A DNA stretch of 64,000 bases from contig NZ_HF954532.1 in the NCBI RefSeq assembly GCF_000455225.1, positions 142,844 to 206,843 of the forward strand, read 5' to 3'. The position numbers and the translations under genes were made by a program. A model generated the notes under the pieces. It saw only the letters and a program-made list of their open reading frames with translations, was not told the DNA's origin and ran no database searches. Below, piece after piece: positions 199-14,131 of the stretch; within the stretch, counting starts at the first letter, position 1, and every line of letters begins with the position of its first letter. This stretch comes from Megasphaera massiliensis (lineage in GTDB: Bacteria; Bacillota; Negativicutes; Veillonellales; Megasphaeraceae).

Positions 199-1056
199 TT
201 ACAACGGTGACGCTTCACCAATAAACCCGCGCAGGACATTGGGCGTTGCCAAGTTTTTGGTTCCGGCACCATAGGCTACGGTATGATAGATGAAGTCAGC
301 CGGTCTTTGCCCTGCATGAGCTAAGACCTTCACCAAGGCAGCTCCCGTCGGCGTAACCAATTCACCCTTGATATCCGTCGAATACCAGGGAATACCGGAC
401 AAAAGTTCCGCTGTGGCCGGCGCCGGCACAGGCATGATGCCGTGGGCGCAGCGGACAAAGCCGCTTCCGGCATGAAGAGACGAGGTGCTGATCTGTTCGA
501 TGCCCAAGTAGTTCAGACACCAAACGGTACCGACGATATCCAAGATGCAGTCGATGGCGCCAACTTCATGAAAATGAATTTCCTCGACCGGTACTCCGTG
601 TACCTTGGCTTCCGCTTCAGCTAAGGCCTGAAAGACGGCCAGGCTCTTGGTTTTTATCCCTTCTTCCAAGGGCGACCCTTTGATAATCTGCGTAATCTCC
701 GCCAGGCCGCGATGGTGGTGGTGATGATGGTGACCGGTCATATCGACGAGGTGGCCGGAAGCATCGTGATGGTGTTCATGGCAGTGATCATCATGATCAT
801 GATGGTCATGATCATCGTGATCGTGATGTTCGTGATCATGGTGGGCATCATGCTTTTCATCATCTAATATTACATTATAATAAACGGCCTGCACGCCGCC
901 CTTATTCTCACTGCGGCACAGGAGTTCATATCCCGTGAGCTGAAGCGAGGCCATGGCCTTTTGAAAAGCTTCAAATGGGACCCCTGCCTGGATGAGCATG
1001 CCGACGAACATATTGCCGCTGATACCTGAAAAACAGTCGAGATGTAGAGTTTTCAT
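199..1056 (-). CDS. larC: LarC N-terminal-half protein (nickel-pincer cofactor synthesis), His-rich
   Basis: Resembles the N-terminal half (LarC1) of LarC, the nickel insertase that completes the nickel-pincer nucleotide cofactor of lactate racemase. It opens with the family motif LDCFSGISGNMF and has EIHFHEVGAIDCILDIVG near residue 160. Between about residues 68 and 117 there is a His/Asp-rich stretch including seven consecutive His, likely metal binding. The 285-residue product stops after PNVLRGFIGE, where full-length LarC (about 400 residues) continues into the CTP-binding LarC2 half. In lactobacilli that half is reached by ribosomal frameshifting; here a hairpin follows the stop and no LarC2-like frame is visible in the remaining 198 bases. 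AAGGAG precedes the ATG. It is the last gene after the adh and cobT-like genes, 11 bases from the latter. Family is clear; whether it works without LarC2 is unknown. Confidence 0.85.
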   Translation of the reverse strand: MKTLHLDCFSGISGNMFVGMLIQAGVPFEAFQKAMASLQLTGYELLCRSENKGGVQAVYYNVILDDEKHDAHHDHEHHDHDDHDHHDHDDHCHEHHHDASGHLVDMTGHHHHHHHRGLAEITQIIKGSPLEEGIKTKSLAVFQALAEAEAKVHGVPVEEIHFHEVGAIDCILDIVGTVWCLNYLGIEQISTSSLHAGSGFVRCAHGIMPVPAPATAELLSGIPWYSTDIKGELVTPTGAALVKVLAHAGQRPADFIYHTVAYGAGTKNLATPNVLRGFIGEASPL

Positions 1057-1067
1057 CGTGGGACTCC

Positions 1068-2069
1068 TTACTTCAAATTATCGTTCATCATTTGGACAGC
1101 GGCATCGAGCATGGTCAGCCCCATGGCTGAGCCCATTCCCTGGTCGAGATTCTGTTCGAGTTCGACGAAGGGTTTCAGTCCTAATTTCTTCATCTGCATC
1201 TGATGTACCGGTTCCTGGTATTGAGCTGACGGGCAAACATAGTCCTCAACCGTCGGGCACAAGGCGCGAGCCAAGAGGACGGCCGCCCCGGTCACGGCAT
1301 TGTCAAAGACGACGAGCATTTTACACCGAGCTGCCGATAAAATGAACCCTACCATGGCCGCAATGTCGGGCGATCCGGCGCGGCGCAGCAAATCCAAAGG
1401 ATTTTCCGGGTCGAAATTCATTTCCTCCATGACGCGTTTCAGCGAATCCAACTTTTTGCCGGACGTCATAGACGCCGGAAGGTCTTCCAATTGACCGCGG
1501 AAAAAGGCCGCCGTTATGATAAAAGCTGTGAGGAGAGCCCGTTCGCCGATATTGCCGAGGCCGACGGCCGTATATCCTTCTTCAGCCAGGTTCTCGCCAA
1601 GCTGCAGACCGCTGAACAGGGCATCCATCATTTCATCTTCACTCATGGCGTCCCGGCGAGCCCAAAAATGGCTGCCGTGCATGACTTTCAGATTCTGGAC
1701 CCCCTGCGATTCGGCCAAGTCATCTTCAAGGCCCATGTCGAGGAGCATGACACCGGCTCCGATACGGTGAGCCACCTTATTGATAGCCCCGCGGCCTCCT
1801 GCAATTTCTAAAGCATCGGCCTTACTGGTCTTGCCCTGGGTCTTATTTTCCCCGCCGTCGACGGCATGGTCGGCAGCAAATATTGCAATGGCCTTCTGCA
1901 GCGTTTCCGGATGAAGGGTCTGCTGCACGCCGGCAATACGGCCTGCCAGATACGATAATTTGCTGTCCTGGCGAATTGTCAGGCTGGCCAAGCGCTGGTA
2001 GCACTCCGCAGCCTTAGCCAGATCCATCGGTTCAATGGCCTTAATAATTTGTTCTAATACAGGATCCAT
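1068..2069 (-). CDS. CobT-like nicotinate-nucleotide phosphoribosyltransferase homologue lacking catalytic Glu
   Basis: A 333-residue CobT-family protein. CobT attaches the ribose phosphate of nicotinate mononucleotide to the lower-ligand base of cobalamin. Family signatures are the AIFAADHAVD stretch (about 62-71), GGRGAINKVA (91-100) and a C-terminal LDAAVQMM. Two positions are odd. Canonical GEMGIGNTT reads TAVGLGNIG here, so the Glu becomes Ala168. Canonical LGEGTGA reads LDQGMGSA, so the catalytic-base Glu becomes Gln310. It may be an inactive partner, a paralogue with other chemistry, or one half of an ArsAB-like phenolyl-cobamide enzyme, although no second cobT-like gene adjoins it. 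The chosen start has GGAGGAAG six to seven bases upstream; an upstream in-frame ATG at 2093 lacks such a site. It lies in an operon with adh upstream and larC downstream. Confidence 0.75.
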   Translation of the reverse strand: MDPVLEQIIKAIEPMDLAKAAECYQRLASLTIRQDSKLSYLAGRIAGVQQTLHPETLQKAIAIFAADHAVDGGENKTQGKTSKADALEIAGGRGAINKVAHRIGAGVMLLDMGLEDDLAESQGVQNLKVMHGSHFWARRDAMSEDEMMDALFSGLQLGENLAEEGYTAVGLGNIGERALLTAFIITAAFFRGQLEDLPASMTSGKKLDSLKRVMEEMNFDPENPLDLLRRAGSPDIAAMVGFILSAARCKMLVVFDNAVTGAAVLLARALCPTVEDYVCPSAQYQEPVHQMQMKKLGLKPFVELEQNLDQGMGSAMGLTMLDAAVQMMNDNLK

Positions 2070-2151: not shown

Positions 2152-3249
2152 TTATAATGACTTACCGAATTCATCGGTATCGAGAATAGCCTGTTTAAAA
2201 GCATCCTTGGTCATCGGCGTGGGAACGCAGGTCCATTCACGCAGGGCTGGGGCGGCATCGACGACGGCGTCGATTTCATCGGCCTTGATGTCTAAGGCTG
2301 CCAGGGTCGTCGGGTAATTGCATTTTTTATAGAAAGCAGCGACCTTATCCCGCAGTTCAAACTGTTTATCGTAGGTCAAGAGGACTAAGACACCGAAGGA
2401 AACAGTTTCGCCGTGAAGATGGCCTTCGACAACCTGGGGAAGGACCGTCGAGGCATTGTAGAACATGTGCGCCAAGGACGAATTATAATAGTATTCTTCA
2501 CCGCCTGTCGTGCAGTTGGAAACGAGGCCCGTGCTGATAATGATGTCTAAGACGACCTGCTGCAGTTCATACGTAATCTGGTTGGCCTTGAAGTCTGCCA
2601 GTGCCTTTTCCCCATACTGGAGAAGCGGTTCCGTACAAGTCTTTCCGATAGCCCGGCCCAAGAGAACGGTATGGAAGTGTTCTGCAGCCCGGCTGGCCAG
2701 TTCCGATTCACATTCCTTACTCATAGCATCGCCAATGCCGGCCCAGAAGAATTTAAAGGGAGAATCAGCAATGACAGCCATATTGATGAAGGTGTGAACC
2801 GGCGGCTGATCGAGGTAATAATAGCCGGCAAAGGACTTATCTTCCTTGTACATGACGGAAATAGCCGTCGACGGAGCGCAGTTAGACGCCAGGGTCGGGA
2901 AAGCAAAGAAGGCTTTATCGGCCTTATCGGCAACGACCTTCCCCGTATCGATGGCCCGGCCGCCGCCGACACCGAAAACGAGATCTGCCTCTTGAACGGC
3001 TTTTTCTTTCAGCAGGCGATCGACGTGTTCAAAGGTGGCATCGTCGCCATACCACAACACGTCGAGGACTTCGAGATCCGTTTTGGCAATGGCATCGAGG
3101 AGCGGCTGTTTAGCCTTGGACAGAGCCGTCTTACCGCCGATGATGACGACTTTTTTCCCAAAGTGTTTGGTGATCTTACCAATGGCATCATAGGCATGTA
3201 TCCCGATGGTAAAAGCCGGCAAAACCAAGGTGTATTCAGATTTAGACAT
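2152..3249 (-). CDS. Iron-containing alcohol dehydrogenase family protein (GldA/HcxA-like)
   Basis: A 365-residue NAD(P)-dependent dehydrogenase of the group III (iron/zinc) family that includes glycerol dehydrogenase GldA and hydroxycarboxylate dehydrogenase HcxA (YbdH). The nucleotide-binding GVGGGRAIDTGK lies near residue 94. The expected metal ligands are present: Asp in GIGDAMSK, His in SLAHMFYN and His in GHLHGETVSFG. The start is placed at MSKSEY because AGGAGG lies eight to nine bases before it; a 12-residue upstream extension overlaps the promoter. First gene of a three-gene unit with the cobT-like gene and larC. Substrate cannot be read from sequence; a 2-hydroxyacid or polyol is plausible next to a lactate-racemase cofactor gene. 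Confidence 0.8.
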   Translation of the reverse strand: MSKSEYTLVLPAFTIGIHAYDAIGKITKHFGKKVVIIGGKTALSKAKQPLLDAIAKTDLEVLDVLWYGDDATFEHVDRLLKEKAVQEADLVFGVGGGRAIDTGKVVADKADKAFFAFPTLASNCAPSTAISVMYKEDKSFAGYYYLDQPPVHTFINMAVIADSPFKFFWAGIGDAMSKECESELASRAAEHFHTVLLGRAIGKTCTEPLLQYGEKALADFKANQITYELQQVVLDIIISTGLVSNCTTGGEEYYYNSSLAHMFYNASTVLPQVVEGHLHGETVSFGVLVLLTYDKQFELRDKVAAFYKKCNYPTTLAALDIKADEIDAVVDAAPALREWTCVPTPMTKDAFKQAILDTDEFGKSL

Positions 3250-3698: not shown

Positions 3699-5576
3699 AT
3701 GAACGGTTTATATCTCGTCATTATTTCTGCCTTAGTGTTCGTACTGGCTTACCGTTTTTACGGCGCATTCATTGCCGCCAAGGTATTGACCCTGAACCAG
3801 TACAAAGTTACACCGGCCTTCCGTTTTGAAGACGGTCACGACTACGTTCCGACGAACAAATACGTCGTCTTCGGCCACCATTTCGCAGCTATCGCCGGTG
3901 CCGGCCCGCTGGTCGGTCCGGTCATTGCCGCCCAGTTCGGTTATCTGCCCGGTGCCTTATGGATTCTCATCGGCGGCGTCCTCGCCGGTGCCGTCCACGA
4001 TATGGTCATCCTCTTCTGCTCCATGCGGTACGACGGCAAGTCCATTGCCGAAATCGCCAAAGCCCAGATCGGTGACAAAACAGGCTTGGCAACGTCCTTT
4101 GCCGTCTTGTTCCTCAATATCCTCTGCATGGCCGGCATGGCCGTCGTCATCGCCAACGCCCTGCACGACAGCCCCTGGGGTACATTCACCATCGGCATGA
4201 CCATTCCTATCGCCATCTTCGTCGGTATCTACATGCAGTTCCTGCGTCCCGGCAAAATTAAAGAAGGCACCATCATCGGCGTCGTCTTGACCTTGCTGGC
4301 CGTCGTCGCCGGCCCTGCCGTCCAGGCTTCGCCGACCTTGGCTCCCCTCTTTACCATCAATGCTACAGGCATCTCCATCGCCCTCATCATCTACGGCTTC
4401 ATCGCAGCTGCCCTTCCGGTATGGCTGCTCCTGGCACCGCGTGACTACCTCTCGACGTACATGAAAATCGGTACCATCGGCGCCTTGGCCCTGGGCATCA
4501 TCATCGTCGGGCCGAACATTCAGATGCCGGCTATGACCCAGTTTACGGCTGGCGGCGGCCCGGTCATCACCGGTGCTGTCTTACCGTATATCTTCGTTAC
4601 CATCGCCTGCGGCGCTATCTCCGGTTTCCACTGCATGATTGCAACGGGCACGACGCCGAAAATGCTGATGAACGAACGCTCCATCCTGCCCGTCGGCTAT
4701 GGCGCTATGGTTACGGAATCGTTCGTTGCCATGATGGCTTTAATCGCAGCCTGCTCGCTGGTACCGAATGATTACTTTGCCATCAACTCTTCGGCCGCTC
4801 ATTTCCAGGCCCTGGGCATTCAAGTCGTCGACCTGCCGCACCTGAGCAACATGGTCGGTGAAGACGTCGCCCATCGTCCGGGCGGTGCCGTTTCCCTGGC
4901 TGTCGGCATGGCTTATATCTTCTCCAACCTGCCCGGCCTCGATCACCTCATGAACTACTGGTACCACTTCTGCATCATGTTCGAAGCCTTATTCATTATG
5001 ACCATCATCGATGCCGGTACCCGTGTCGGCCGTTATATGCTCCAGGAACTCGTCGGCCGCGTATGGCCTAAGTTCGGCGATCCGAACTGGAAACCCGGTG
5101 CCATCATCGCTTCTGCTTTGATTTGCGGGGCTTGGGGTTATTTAGTCCTCAACGGCAACCTGTCCACCATCTGGCCGATCTTCGGCGTATCGAACCAGCT
5201 CCTCGCTATCATCGCCCTTTCGATTTCGTCGGTCGTCCTCTGCTCTATGGGCAAAGCTCGTTACCTTTGGGTTACGGCCATTCCCTGGGCTTTCCTGATG
5301 GTCATGATCTTCTGGGCTGACTATCTCAACATCTTCGAAATTTACCTTCCGAAGGGTGAATGGACGATGTTCACCGTTTCCATCATCATGGCCCTGTTGG
5401 TCATCATCGTTGCCGTCGGCGCCGTCCGCAAGTGCATCTACTTAGCAAAGACGGTCCCTGCCAACTATGACACTTCGGAAATCGTTGAAACGGAAGAACT
5501 GAAACACCTCCAGGAACTGGTAAAAACTGATAAAGCAGCTCAGCGTTTCCAAGAAATGTCTGTCGCTCATCATTAA
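3699..5576 (+). CDS. cstA: CstA-family carbon starvation protein (peptide/pyruvate transporter)
   Basis: A 625-residue integral membrane protein of the CstA family. E. coli members (CstA, BtsT) import peptides or pyruvate under carbon limitation. It begins with a hydrophobic helix (LYLVIISALVFVLAYRFYG) and has many further membrane spans, the loop HHFAAIAGAGPLVGPVIAAQ near residue 60, FHCMIATGTTPKMLMNER near 310, and a C-terminal 5TM-CstA segment followed by a short charged tail. AAAGGAGG lies ten bases before the ATG. A second, nearly identical gene of the same length follows after a terminator, so the pair is a tandem duplication. Transport substrate is inferred from family only. Confidence 0.9.
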   Translation: MNGLYLVIISALVFVLAYRFYGAFIAAKVLTLNQYKVTPAFRFEDGHDYVPTNKYVVFGHHFAAIAGAGPLVGPVIAAQFGYLPGALWILIGGVLAGAVHDMVILFCSMRYDGKSIAEIAKAQIGDKTGLATSFAVLFLNILCMAGMAVVIANALHDSPWGTFTIGMTIPIAIFVGIYMQFLRPGKIKEGTIIGVVLTLLAVVAGPAVQASPTLAPLFTINATGISIALIIYGFIAAALPVWLLLAPRDYLSTYMKIGTIGALALGIIIVGPNIQMPAMTQFTAGGGPVITGAVLPYIFVTIACGAISGFHCMIATGTTPKMLMNERSILPVGYGAMVTESFVAMMALIAACSLVPNDYFAINSSAAHFQALGIQVVDLPHLSNMVGEDVAHRPGGAVSLAVGMAYIFSNLPGLDHLMNYWYHFCIMFEALFIMTIIDAGTRVGRYMLQELVGRVWPKFGDPNWKPGAIIASALICGAWGYLVLNGNLSTIWPIFGVSNQLLAIIALSISSVVLCSMGKARYLWVTAIPWAFLMVMIFWADYLNIFEIYLPKGEWTMFTVSIIMALLVIIVAVGAVRKCIYLAKTVPANYDTSEIVETEELKHLQELVKTDKAAQRFQEMSVAHH

Positions 5577-5764: not shown

Positions 5765-6023
5765 ATAGTAAAATCGTTATATGATATTTATAAACGACAA
5801 AAAGTCAATAGAATTGTAACAAAAACGTTTTACTTGGATGGACTGAGGATGTGGCGTTGCATCCGATTATAATATTCCTCATCAAAGCACCTGCGGCAAA
5901 AGTGATGAGATCCATACCCCCATCAAAAGCATGGCATCAGCTTTATATTTCGTACCTATACAACGCCTGTTTTGTAAGCGTCCAGCGCTTCACGAAATAA
6001 ATATGATAAGGAGGGAATTTTTT
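5765..6023 (+). promoter_or_regulatory. Long structured leader of the second cstA
   Basis: About 260 bases lie between the likely transcription start and the ATG. CTCATCA (5878-5884) pairs with TGATGAG (5903-5909) around an 18-base loop. No gene and no known riboswitch was recognised. The first cstA has an unrelated, shorter leader, so the copies are probably controlled differently. Confidence 0.3.
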
Positions 6024-7901
6024 ATGAATGGTTTGTTTTTAGTTATCATTTCTGCATTAATATTTGTGCTGGCTTACCGTTTCTATGGTGCTTTTATTGC
6101 CGCAAAAGTACTGACCGTTAACCAGTATAAGGTTACACCGGCTTTCCGTTTTGAAGACGGTCATGACTACGTGCCGACCAATAAGTACGTCGTCTTCGGC
6201 CATCACTTCGCGGCTATCGCCGGTGCCGGCCCCCTCGTAGGCCCGGTCATCGCAGCCCAGTTCGGTTACTTACCGGGCGCCCTGTGGATTCTCATCGGCG
6301 GTGTCCTCGCCGGTGCCGTCCATGACATGGTCATCCTCTTTGCGTCCATGCGCTATGACGGCAAATCCATTGCCGAAATCGCCAAAGCTCAGATTGGTGA
6401 CAAAGTCGGCCTGGCAACATCCTTTGCCGTCTTGTTCCTCAACATCCTGGCTATGGCCGGCATGGCCGTCGTCATCGTCAATGCCCTTCACGACAGCCCT
6501 TGGGGTACTTTCACGATCGGCATGACCATTCCTATCGCTATTTTCGTCGGCGTCTACATGCAGTTCCTGCGCCCGGGCCACATCAAAGAAGGTACGGTCA
6601 TCGGCGTAGCACTGACACTTCTCGCCGTCATTCTCGGTCCGTCCGTATCGGCTTCGCCGACACTGGCTCCCCTGTTCACGATCAATGCTAAGGGCATTTC
6701 CATCGCCCTCATCATCTACGGCTTCGTAGCTGCTGCTCTTCCCGTATGGCTGCTCCTGGCTCCGCGTGACTACCTCTCGACGTACATGAAAATCGGTACC
6801 ATCGGCGCTCTGGCCATCGGTATCATCATCGTCGGACCTACGATTCAGATGCCGGCTATGACTCAGTTTGTCGCCGGCGGCGGCCCGGTCATCACCGGTC
6901 CGGTCCTTCCGTATATCTTCATCACCATCGCCTGCGGTGCCATCTCCGGCTTCCACTGCATGATTTCGACCGGTACGACGCCGAAGATGCTGATGAACGA
7001 ACGCTCCATTCTCCCCGTAGGCTACGGCGCCATGCTGACCGAATCCTTCGTCGGCATGATGGCCCTTATCGCAGCCTGCTCCCTCATCCCGAACGACTAC
7101 TTCGCCATCAACTCGACAGCTGAACACTTCCAGGCCCTGGGCATCCAGGTCGTCGACCTGCCTCAGTTGAACGCCATGGTCGGTGAAGACGTAGCTCATC
7201 GTCCCGGCGGCGCCGTTTCGCTGGCTGTCGGCATGGCTTTCATCTTCTCCAACATCCCCGGCCTTGACCACCTGATGAACTACTGGTATCACTTCTGCAT
7301 CATGTTTGAAGCCCTGTTCATCATGACCATCATCGACGCCGGTACTCGTGTCGGCCGTTACATGCTCCAGGAACTCATCGGCCGCGTATGGCCGAAGTTC
7401 GGCGATCCCCATTGGCTCCCCGGCGGCATCGTCGCCTCGGCTCTGATCTCCGGCGCATGGGGTTACATCGTACTCCAAGGCAACCTGTCTACGATTTGGC
7501 CGATATTCGGTGTATCGAACCAGCTCTTGGCCATCATCACCCTGGCCATCTCGACCGTTGTCATCTGTGCTATGGGTAAGGCCCGCTTCGCCTGGGTCAC
7601 GGTCATCCCCTGGGTTTTCCTGACCGTCGTTATCTTCTGGGCTGATTACCTCAATATGTTCAACATCTACCTGCCCAAGCAGGAATGGCTCCTCTTCGGC
7701 GTATCGGCTATCATGGCCATCTTGGTCATCATCGTCAGCGTAGCCTCTGCACGGAAATGCCTTGAATTGGCAAAGACCGTACCGCCCAGCTACGATACGT
7801 CTGAAACGGTAGAAGCTGAAGAATTGAAACACCTCGAAGAATTAGTTAAATCCGATCCGATTGCCAAACGCTTTAAAGAATTGACCGTCGATCAACACTA
7901 A
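6024..7901 (+). CDS. cstA: Second CstA-family carbon starvation protein (tandem paralogue)
   Basis: A 625-residue multi-spanning membrane transporter, the same length as the upstream copy and nearly identical to it through the hydrophobic core; differences gather in a few loops and the last 30 residues. Likely imports pyruvate or small peptides, by family. The start is set at MNGLFLVII because AAGGAGGG lies eight bases before it and the upstream copy starts at the same residue; the open frame continues 31 codons upstream without a ribosome site. The long open frame on the opposite strand is a codon-usage artefact. Possible roles for the duplicate are gene dosage or separate regulation through its own promoter and leader. 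Confidence 0.9.
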   Translation: MNGLFLVIISALIFVLAYRFYGAFIAAKVLTVNQYKVTPAFRFEDGHDYVPTNKYVVFGHHFAAIAGAGPLVGPVIAAQFGYLPGALWILIGGVLAGAVHDMVILFASMRYDGKSIAEIAKAQIGDKVGLATSFAVLFLNILAMAGMAVVIVNALHDSPWGTFTIGMTIPIAIFVGVYMQFLRPGHIKEGTVIGVALTLLAVILGPSVSASPTLAPLFTINAKGISIALIIYGFVAAALPVWLLLAPRDYLSTYMKIGTIGALAIGIIIVGPTIQMPAMTQFVAGGGPVITGPVLPYIFITIACGAISGFHCMISTGTTPKMLMNERSILPVGYGAMLTESFVGMMALIAACSLIPNDYFAINSTAEHFQALGIQVVDLPQLNAMVGEDVAHRPGGAVSLAVGMAFIFSNIPGLDHLMNYWYHFCIMFEALFIMTIIDAGTRVGRYMLQELIGRVWPKFGDPHWLPGGIVASALISGAWGYIVLQGNLSTIWPIFGVSNQLLAIITLAISTVVICAMGKARFAWVTVIPWVFLTVVIFWADYLNMFNIYLPKQEWLLFGVSAIMAILVIIVSVASARKCLELAKTVPPSYDTSETVEAEELKHLEELVKSDPIAKRFKELTVDQH

Positions 7902-8918: not shown

Positions 8919-10316
8919 TCAATCAAAAATCTTTCCGGGATTTAAAATCCCCTTCGGGTCCCAAGCCCGTTTCAAAGCTTTCATCAATTCCAACTCGACG
9001 GGGTCAGTATATTTTGCAAATAAAGCTTTCCGGGCCTGACCGATACCGTGTTCGCCGGAAACAGCGCCGCCCAGACGATAGGCTGCTTCACAGGCCTTAT
9101 CTTCAAAAGCCGCGATACGACCTCCTTCATCGGCCTCATCTGCAAAGCCCCGACGCAGGAGGTCCAAGTGAATATTGCCGTCTCCGGCATGGCTGACACC
9201 GCGGAATACGACGCCCGTCGCTTCACCGATGGCCTTCAACTCGTTCATGAAGGACAATAGTTTATCCGGCGGTACGACGAAGTCTTCCATGGCGGCGACC
9301 GGGCAGTCCGAAGCCGACGCTTCGGTAAAGGCCTTGCGGGCCTTCCAAACTTTTTCGGCATCGGCCATGAAGACTTCGACAGCCCCGAGAGATCGGCAGA
9401 TGTCATCGAGATTCATGCAGTCATCGTCAAGGCCGTCTTCACTTTGACTGTCAAGCTGGATAATCATATAGGCTCCGCCTTCAGGGCAGTTCTGTTTTTC
9501 ATCGAGCCATTCCCCGACGACTTCGATGACATCGTAATCCATAAATTCCAAACACGTCGGCGTAATACCGGCCTTGGGGAGCGCCGTCACCAGCGATAAG
9601 GCCTGTTCGGCCGATGGAAAGACGGCCAGGACGTGTGCCGTCGACTTTGGCAAGGGCACAAGCTTTAAGGTCAGTTTCGTAATAATGCCCAGCGTCCCTT
9701 CAGAGCCAACGACGATTTTTTCCAAGGGGTAGCCGGCCGTCATCTTATGGAGGCGCTTACCGAGATTAGCAATTTTCCCGGTCGGCGTGACGACTTCAAG
9801 AGCATAGATTTGGTCTCTCGTCGTCCCATACTTCACGGCCCGGTTACCGCCGGCATTGGTGGCCCCGTTGCCGCCGATACAGCAGCTGTCGCCGCTGCAC
9901 GGGTCACCGGCATAGAGAAGGCCCCTTTTACCGGCTTCCTTTTGTATCGTCTCGGTAATGACGCCGGCTTCTACGACCATGTACATAGCCGCTTCATTAA
10001 TTTCTAAAATGCGGTTCATCCGCTCCGTACTGACCATGATGCCGCCGCGGCCGTCGACAAGGGCGCCGCCTTCAAGGCCCGTCCCGGTCCCTCTGGGAAT
10101 GACGGGAATGACGGCCTCGTTAGCCAAAGCGACAACAGCAGCCAATTCCTCCGCCGTTGCCGGTAAGACGACGGCATCGGGCAGAAAAGGCACCGCAAAG
10201 GTGCCTTCATCGCGACCGTAGGGAATCCGTTTATCGTCATCGGTCCAAACATATTTTTCACCTACAATAGCCTGTAAGGCCGTTATGACTGCAGGGGTTA
10301 TCTGATTATACTCCAT
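8919..10316 (-). CDS. GlcD-type FAD-linked 2-hydroxyacid dehydrogenase
   Basis: A 465-residue cytoplasmic flavoprotein of the GlcD / D-lactate dehydrogenase family, oxidising a 2-hydroxyacid such as D-lactate or glycolate. The FAD-binding PVIPRGTGTGLEGGA is near residue 93, and GDPCSGDSCCIGGNGATNAGG near 140. The C-terminal cap ends with GEHGIGQARK and the canonical AWDPKGILNPGKIFD. In lactate-using anaerobes such enzymes often work with electron-transfer flavoprotein, but no etf gene is present here. GAGGATG precedes the ATG. The pflX-like gene follows at 11 bases. Electron acceptor and substrate are inference. Confidence 0.85.
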   Translation of the reverse strand: MEYNQITPAVITALQAIVGEKYVWTDDDKRIPYGRDEGTFAVPFLPDAVVLPATAEELAAVVALANEAVIPVIPRGTGTGLEGGALVDGRGGIMVSTERMNRILEINEAAMYMVVEAGVITETIQKEAGKRGLLYAGDPCSGDSCCIGGNGATNAGGNRAVKYGTTRDQIYALEVVTPTGKIANLGKRLHKMTAGYPLEKIVVGSEGTLGIITKLTLKLVPLPKSTAHVLAVFPSAEQALSLVTALPKAGITPTCLEFMDYDVIEVVGEWLDEKQNCPEGGAYMIIQLDSQSEDGLDDDCMNLDDICRSLGAVEVFMADAEKVWKARKAFTEASASDCPVAAMEDFVVPPDKLLSFMNELKAIGEATGVVFRGVSHAGDGNIHLDLLRRGFADEADEGGRIAAFEDKACEAAYRLGGAVSGEHGIGQARKALFAKYTDPVELELMKALKRAWDPKGILNPGKIFD

Positions 10317-11674: not shown

Positions 11675-12945
11675 AAGATAGCCCCTCCTTTCATGGCGTA
11701 CATAGCAAGGTATATGACGGCCCCTAAGACGGCGCCGACGAGGGAGCCGTTGACGCGAATCATCTGCAAGTCATACCAGACACTGTTTTCCAATTGTTCT
11801 GCAAGATAAGTTCCGTCATATTTAAGGATTTCTGCTTCAGCCGTCTTACCGAACCAAACCTGGAGCCGCTTCAGTTCGCGGGCAGCAAAAGCCAGGGCCT
11901 GGCGGTTGATCTGTTCGACCTGCTCCGGATTTTGGTGCCAGCCTTCCAGTTTTTGGACGACAAATTCTGCCGCTGCCGTACAGAAGCGCTTCTGATTGTC
12001 CGGATTCTGGACGTAACGCTGCCAAGCTTCCTCGGTATCCGGCCGCAGCATCAAATGATTATACATCTTATCCTTATAAGCATCGATGCGCTGACTCCAT
12101 TCTTCATTGATTTCGATGTGTTCAGCCTGCTTCCACAAGTAGTGGAGAGCCTGCTGGCGCTGAAGGGAGTTTTCCTCTTTGGTTTCTTCCAAAAGAGCCA
12201 GGCATTTTTCCTGCAGCAAACCGGCAACGTGGCTCGGCTGAAAGACTTCCATTTTAATGGCCGCTTTAATAGCCCATCCCAATAAGATGTTGTGTTTGGC
12301 ATACTGCCGCAGGGACTCTTCATAGATTTCACCGATATAGCCTTTTGTCGTATCGCTCTTCACGACTTGTTCCAAGGCAAAGATCATAAAATCGAGAAAA
12401 TCCTTGCCCGATTCACCGCGAAGGCTGGCTTGAATCGCCTTGCTCATGACCGGCGCCAAATCGATTTTTTCGACGGCCGATCCGCCGATGCCGGCAAAGG
12501 CCTTGACAACGGTCTTCATGTCGACGGTGTACAAAAAGGTGTTTAAAATTTGGCCGAAGATGCGCTCTGCCGATTGGAATCCCTTTTCCGTATGGAGATA
12601 GTCCAGCGTCGCCCCTAAAATAGGATGGCGTTTGAGGACATTATACATATTGGAAACGGTCAAAATCTCCGATTCAATCATGTGCCGCGCCATTTCGGCA
12701 ATCCGTTCCTTACTATTGGGAATCAAAGCGGTCTTAAAGGAAATGCCCAAGGGGCGCCGAAACAGCGCCGTAACCGCATACCAGTCGGCAAGGCCCCCGA
12801 TAAGGGCCGCTCCCGCTAAATGAGTCAAGAGTCCGCCTGCAAAAAAGTCTTGGAACGGATAGGACAATAAGAGAACGATTGCGGCTATAATCAGGATATA
12901 ATTGGCAATCTGGCTCCGTCTTCCGCCATTTGTGTTACTCGCCAT
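11671..12945 (-). CDS. DUF445 membrane protein (first of a tandem pair)
   Basis: A 424-residue DUF445 protein. It has a membrane segment YILIIAAIVLLLSYPF, the signature GGLADWYAVTALFRRPLGIS near residue 50, a long, mostly helical middle, and a C-terminal NGSLVGAVLGAVIYLAMYAM segment. The sequence parallels the next gene throughout, so the pair is an old tandem duplication. It starts eight bases after the MBL hydrolase stop and overlaps the second DUF445 gene by four bases, making a three-gene operon. Role unknown. Confidence 0.8.
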   Translation of the reverse strand: MASNTNGGRRSQIANYILIIAAIVLLLSYPFQDFFAGGLLTHLAGAALIGGLADWYAVTALFRRPLGISFKTALIPNSKERIAEMARHMIESEILTVSNMYNVLKRHPILGATLDYLHTEKGFQSAERIFGQILNTFLYTVDMKTVVKAFAGIGGSAVEKIDLAPVMSKAIQASLRGESGKDFLDFMIFALEQVVKSDTTKGYIGEIYEESLRQYAKHNILLGWAIKAAIKMEVFQPSHVAGLLQEKCLALLEETKEENSLQRQQALHYLWKQAEHIEINEEWSQRIDAYKDKMYNHLMLRPDTEEAWQRYVQNPDNQKRFCTAAAEFVVQKLEGWHQNPEQVEQINRQALAFAARELKRLQVWFGKTAEAEILKYDGTYLAEQLENSVWYDLQMIRVNGSLVGAVLGAVIYLAMYAMKGGAIL

Positions 12946-13884: not shown

Positions 13885-14131
13885 AACCAAAGACATAAAT
13901 GCAATGATTGAAACAAGTACACACAGGAAACGGTACAGAGAGTAGGGGTCATTGGCTGAAAGCCCTTATCAAAGTCAACTGTGATGGAATGCCTTCAAGA
14001 GCAGGATGATTGAACTTAACAGTAGGTCATCTCGGTTGCCGCCGTTATGGGTATTGAGTGGCAGTCTTCGTACTGCAATCAGAGTGGAACCACGGACCAT
14101 CGTCTCTGTATGACGAGGTCTTTTTTTTATT
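13885..14131 (+). promoter_or_regulatory. T-box riboswitch, cysteine-specific
   Basis: Leader RNA that senses uncharged tRNA. The T-box sequence AGAGTGGAACCACGG lies at 14081-14095, where TGGA pairs with the tRNA acceptor end. The Stem I S-turn elements AGTA (13941-13944) and GAA (13987-13989) frame a specifier codon TGC at 13990-13992, which reads as cysteine and matches the downstream cysE. A terminator follows at 14094-14128. Uncharged tRNA-Cys would favour the antiterminator and turn on cysteine synthesis. Confidence 0.88.
14094..14128 (+). terminator. T-box-controlled terminator
   Basis: GACCATCGTC (14095-14104) pairs with GACGAGGTC (14112-14120) with a bulge, followed by eight T. Its 5' arm overlaps the end of the T-box sequence, as needed for switching with the antiterminator. 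Confidence 0.85.

Follow-up and report, generated by a model that had tools for sequence, protein, structure and literature searches.

What does a protein with the CobT fold do when it carries neither of the two catalytic glutamates of CobT and is encoded beside a part of larC? The question is raised by a gene in the window, i.e., the 64,000-nucleotide stretch of Megasphaera massiliensis DNA analysed here. An open reading frame at 1068-2093 on the minus strand was confirmed to be present in the window. Translation is better taken to begin within it, at the ATG at 2069, since GGAGG (2078-2074) stands 4 nt 5′ of this ATG and the start Met is kept in 15/15 family orthologues; the start chosen in the preliminary description is therefore preferred, and residues are numbered below on the resulting 333-aa version. 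The gene and its neighbours are as follows.

1068 to 2069, minus strand: arsB-like coding sequence for an orphan ArsB of 333 aa with the CobT fold, start ATG at 2069
199 to 1056, minus strand: larC1, the N-terminal part of LarC only (TIGR00299, 217.6 bits; PF01969, positions 1-235 of 375)
2152 to 3249, minus strand: upstream glycerol-dehydrogenase-like Fe-ADH gene, found in only part of the genus
3699 to 5576, plus strand, divergent: carbon starvation gene of the cstA type (PF02554, 708 bits), flanking the locus throughout the family

Because larC1 begins 11 nt past the arsB-like stop and the upstream glycerol-dehydrogenase-like gene has the same orientation, an operon is likely, and the arsB-like gene and larC1 are probably co-transcribed. 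No cobalamin riboswitch was found at the locus by Rfam searches of nine loci and the window, and PADLOC gave no match of the arsB-like gene to an anti-phage family. Elsewhere in the window, a T-box leader (RF00230, 118 bits) occupies 13895-14110, and the genes at 3699-5576 and 5931-7901 form a tandem pair of very similar CstA-type genes beside an FAD-linked oxidase gene (8919-10316); around larC1, the CstA pair and the oxidase gene may be a cluster for lactate or pyruvate use.

That the rest of the CobT fold is kept, as had been proposed, was borne out by the Pfam DBI_PRT match of the protein (230 bits, 320 positions covered), by its AlphaFold2 model (pLDDT 88.8, pTM 0.90) and by Foldseek, in which the model reached a TM-score of 0.85 against both ArsB and CobT. 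The structural comparison rests on tool scores, and the VIA-align Z values for ArsB and ArsA are tied (43.3 and 42.6, respectively), so that the two subunits cannot be told apart by fold alone. The best sequence match in the PDB is ArsB (4e-38, versus 2e-25 for CobT), and ArsB is also the best Foldseek match. Phylogenetic analysis of 87 proteins by maximum likelihood grouped the window protein with 14 orthologues of its family in a single clade, nested in the ArsB of the other Veillonellales families (support 100/100), which in turn falls within the clade of the structurally solved ArsB of Sporomusa ovata (98/92; 4hdk, 4hdm and 4hdr, chain B), whereas CobT of the Megasphaera family falls elsewhere. 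The Sporomusa protein shares 29% identity and a TM-score of 0.85 with the window protein and, like it, is without a SAYP loop and a GNTT motif; however, both Glu174 and Glu317 are retained in Sporomusa, where ArsA is encoded in tandem, and the window protein has neither of these features. The genome possesses only two DBI_PRT genes, and the second, about 17 kb from the arsB-like gene, encodes a canonical CobT with the motifs GEMGIGNTT and LGEGTGA. With this CobT and that of Salmonella, the window protein has its fold and Pfam family in common, but it is without the catalytic Glu residues and the GNTT loop and stands in a separate clade. Its score of 171.7 bits is far below the cut-off of the CobT equivalog TIGR03160 (319.3 bits), which the canonical CobT of the same genome also misses, narrowly, at 293. 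As judged from sequence and phylogeny, the window protein is an ArsB orthologue and not a degenerate CobT.

At the catalytic site, pairwise alignments to ArsB, ArsA and CobT are ungapped around both glutamate positions and agree with the multiple alignment, which places the relevant residues as follows.

1551 to 1553, minus strand: codon AAT for Asn173, equivalent to CobT Glu174 (ungapped alignments)
1539 to 1547, minus strand: Gly-Glu-Arg (GER) motif at CobT G176-M177-A178, directly before the N-T-T of the loop
1140 to 1142, minus strand: codon CAG for Gln310, equivalent to CobT Glu317 (alignment)

The preliminary description had named Ala168 and Gln310 as the two altered catalytic positions. 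Gln310 corresponds to Glu317 of Salmonella CobT as stated, while the residue at Glu174 is Asn173 and not Ala168. Its main point holds, since the aligned Glu is absent at both positions in 15/15 orthologues and is restored at neither by alignment against CobT, ArsA and ArsB. The absence of the pair from all the orthologues also means that it is due neither to chance nor to sequencing error. The reading of GNIG as the GNTT motif had to be abandoned; GNIG has GE(L/M)G as its counterpart, and RALL stands where the GNTT loop, now gone, would be. In the Megasphaera family, position 174 of ArsB is Asn in 14/15 and Ser in 1/15, and position 317 is Gln in 12/15, with Cys, Arg or Met in the others; in Veillonellales ArsB outside this family, 317 is still Glu in 8/12. 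The GER motif occurs in all 15 orphans and is similarly kept in other Veillonellales ArsB (G in 9/9, E in 8/9 and R in 9/9).

The genes found next to arsB in related genomes indicate how this protein came to stand alone. A search with ArsA against 16 relatives in the Megasphaera family (hereafter f1) detected no ArsA, the best matches being CobT at 31-36%, and none was found in the genome of the window, so that ArsA is absent from all 17 f1 genomes, whereas the arsB-like gene persists alone in 15 of them. In the other Veillonellales families (f2, f3 and f4), arsA and arsB are in tandem. The check for a conserved larC neighbourhood gave a positive result, in that larC1 follows arsB in most f1 and many f2-f4 genomes. 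The gene order is arsA-arsB-larC1 followed by tRNAs in f4 and arsB-larC1-tRNA cluster in f1. The f1 locus is thus the ancestral one minus ArsA, because arsB alone precedes larC1 and the tRNA cluster is common with f4. ArsB of f2-f4 resembles that of f1 in its mostly non-Glu residue at 174, its GER motif and the arsB-larC1 locus, but differs in that ArsA is retained and in that Glu317 is retained in most of f2 and f4. ArsAB itself is already known and is defined as a tandem pair of which both ArsA and ArsB are needed (PMC6461909), and the tandem arrangement of this phenol-activating system was not found in f1. Hence, the suggestion that the window protein could be a non-catalytic partner as in ArsAB was correct as to ArsB, by both phylogeny and synteny; ArsA, however, is gone, which makes ArsB an orphan, with CobT as a putative partner at most. 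What remains at the ancestral arsAB-larC1 locus is an orthologue of ArsB, with ArsA absent and with the NaMN loop and both glutamates lost. In one f1 genome (G007; L037), two group II intron copies in opposite orientation (3967-4266 and 12184-12483) flank the arsB-larC1 locus.

Which half of ArsAB was the catalytic one can be judged from conservation. In 25/25 ArsA counted, from which a degenerate ArsA of the f2 genome G022 was left out, Tyr80, Met88, Glu174, Met175, Asn179, Thr180 and Glu317 are all kept, while ArsB varies at all seven positions; in Veillonellales ArsB, residue 174 is mostly non-Glu and the GNTT loop is gone. Tyr80, Met88 and Met175 can be tied to phenol binding on the basis of PDB 4kqj, a CobT S80Y/Q88M/L175M variant with p-cresol and NaMN. 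Because of this entry, the conservation of ArsA and the degeneration of ArsB, ArsA very probably holds the working site and is the catalytic subunit, and the window protein would therefore descend from the non-catalytic half, Glu317 having been lost additionally in the family that lacks ArsA. Two other genomes show different forms of decay. ArsA of G022 (L101 6874-7890), a 1.3 Mb genome, is also without the catalytic motifs (GNISKG), so that both halves look dead; in G059 (L098, about 5.0-6.0 kb), it is ArsB that is reduced, internal deletions leaving about 266 aa beside an intact ArsA, the opposite of the situation in Megasphaera.

If both the partner and the catalytic residues have been lost, the gene might be a functionless, decaying relic of ArsAB. 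Such decay is seen in two reduced genomes in which the gene is degraded or absent, and the two most diverged orthologues (G005 and G011) have long branches in the tree, for which reason constraint may be relaxed in them. However, the frame is intact in 15 genomes with identity down to about 42%, and dN/dS, determined by the pairwise Nei-Gojobori method for eight f1 pairs and rough where dS exceeds 1 (saturation), is 0.02-0.10 in 7/8 pairs and 0.17 in the pair G015/G016, similar to the values for CobT (0.06-0.12) and LarC1 (0.05-0.10). Purifying selection on the orphan ArsB is strong and comparable to that on CobT, and a pseudogene is rejected by these values and the intact frames; it is extremely improbable that the gene is a relic. 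Stops reported in G001 and G002 proved to come from the alignment running beyond a C-terminus that lies slightly earlier, and both reading frames are intact. At 105 positions, many of them active-site positions of CobT, no more than one of the 15 orthologues deviates, and the kept active-site signature comprises DHAVDGxEN, GNxGER, DNAxTG, EPV and GS. To go by these residues, the pocket is remodelled rather than abandoned, and the gene is not dying in most of the family.

Taken together, the likely explanation is an arsB gene whose product, the non-catalytic subunit of ArsAB, was left alone after the loss of ArsA and has been retained because its pocket binds a ligand, because it pairs with itself or with CobT, or for both reasons. 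Such a protein would not transfer phosphoribose by the CobT mechanism; its remodelled pocket would still bind a ligand, for which a ribonucleotide (NaMN or an alpha-riboside, for instance) is the probable candidate, and it would act through homodimers or by pairing with the CobT of the cell, thereby modulating lower-ligand activation or another nicotinate-nucleotide process. Orphan ArsB has, then, probably been given another binding or partner role. A role in lower-ligand metabolism is possible, because CobT and CobS are present in all 17 f1 genomes. Dependence on de novo corrin synthesis was rejected, as G015 and G016 keep the arsB-like gene and CbiD was not found in them.

A more specific form of partnership, in which orphan ArsB heterodimerises with the genuine CobT and changes which lower ligand is activated, fits the ancestral role of ArsB as the obligate partner of a CobT-family enzyme as well as the universal presence of CobT and CobS in the family. 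It is nevertheless doubtful: cobT lies outside the operon, CobT of the family has Gln at 80 and 88 with no shift toward the ArsA-type pocket, and CobT is kept in both genomes without the arsB-like gene (G004 and G014), from which it follows that CobT does not depend on the arsB-like protein. It is also improbable, though less so than decay, that the protein is a still active phosphoribosyltransferase working by another mechanism or on another base, with the GER glutamate or other residues involved. Polar residues are conserved at pocket positions, Glu176 of GER, at a distance of three residues from position 174, might take over from the catalytic Glu, and a single missing Glu is no proof of inactivity, because the CobT E317A variant was crystallised with its reaction products (4kqi). 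Both residues have been studied in Salmonella CobT: according to the PDB titles among the Foldseek matches, 4kqf is CobT E174A and 4kqh/4kqi are CobT E317A, i.e., they lack the same two residues as the window protein; however, each of these variants carries one engineered substitution and a site that is intact in all else, whereas here the whole GNTT loop, Glu174 and Glu317 are all absent, and position 317 is variable. Much of the kept pocket signature is common to ArsB of families that still have ArsA, and a further alternative, to which we would give a little less than an even chance, is that Veillonellales ArsB gained its pocket (GNxGER, ENxTxG) before ArsA was lost, the Megasphaera half now working on its own in nucleotide binding or catalysis, for a purpose outside the activation of lower ligands.

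Retention of ArsB after ArsA loss makes this a clear natural case in which an obligate heterodimer loses its catalytic half and the non-catalytic half stays under strong selection; no report of ArsB kept alone under selection was found in the limited literature searched. It predicts that Megasphaera, unlike Veillonella, is unable to produce phenolyl cobamides through ArsAB. It is also a warning against relying on the DBI_PRT annotation alone, by which CobT activity would wrongly be assigned to the gene.

The position beside larC had further suggested that the protein might serve the nickel-pincer nucleotide pathway together with LarC1, perhaps as a binder or carrier of a nicotinate nucleotide. 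The adjacency is real, larC1 lying 11-41 nt after arsB in most f1 genomes and after arsAB in other Veillonellales families, but the neighbour is not a full larC: larC1 encodes the N-terminal part of the nickel insertase LarC, which is not homologous to the arsB-like protein, and LarC2 is encoded apart from it on another contig, where larC2 follows larB (L122 8012-9140; G000 contig 4). The adjacency and this separation of LarC1 from the rest of LarC would speak for such a role. Within the genus, however, the two sets of genes have been lost independently in both directions. G005 and G011 have the arsB-like gene without LarC and LarA, while G004 and G014 have LarC1, LarC2 and LarA without an intact arsB-like gene; in G004, cstA and larC1 are in place with no arsB between them, and in G014, a multiply disrupted arsB remnant directly precedes an intact larC1. 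These two genomes are estimated to be 88-89% complete, but that the gene is lost can be read directly from the locus. Another nine genomes, from f2-f4, also have ArsB without LarA, and the arsB-like gene does not co-occur consistently with LarA/LarC across genomes. Moreover, LarB, LarC and LarE suffice for the cofactor in vitro (PMC7583248) and make it in Escherichia coli, including for LarA of Megasphaera elsdenii (PMC11796402). With these independent losses and the published reconstitution of the pathway by LarB, LarC and LarE alone, the nickel-pincer role is rejected, and any part of the arsB-like protein in it is highly improbable. The arsB-larC1 adjacency is older than the loss of ArsA, being ancestral to the order, and does not demonstrate a common pathway, and the comparison thus separates B12 lower-ligand genes from lactate-racemase cofactor genes that share an operon by happenstance.

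Separate larC1 and larC2 are found also in other f1, f3 and f4 genomes, and several f2 genomes have a single full-length LarC. In f2, a very divergent LarC1-like gene directly follows arsAB (L051 9132-9890, L052 9078-9854, L095 and L101); its match to PF01969 is only about 29 bits (L051, L052), it is present even without any LarA, and its function may be linked to ArsAB.
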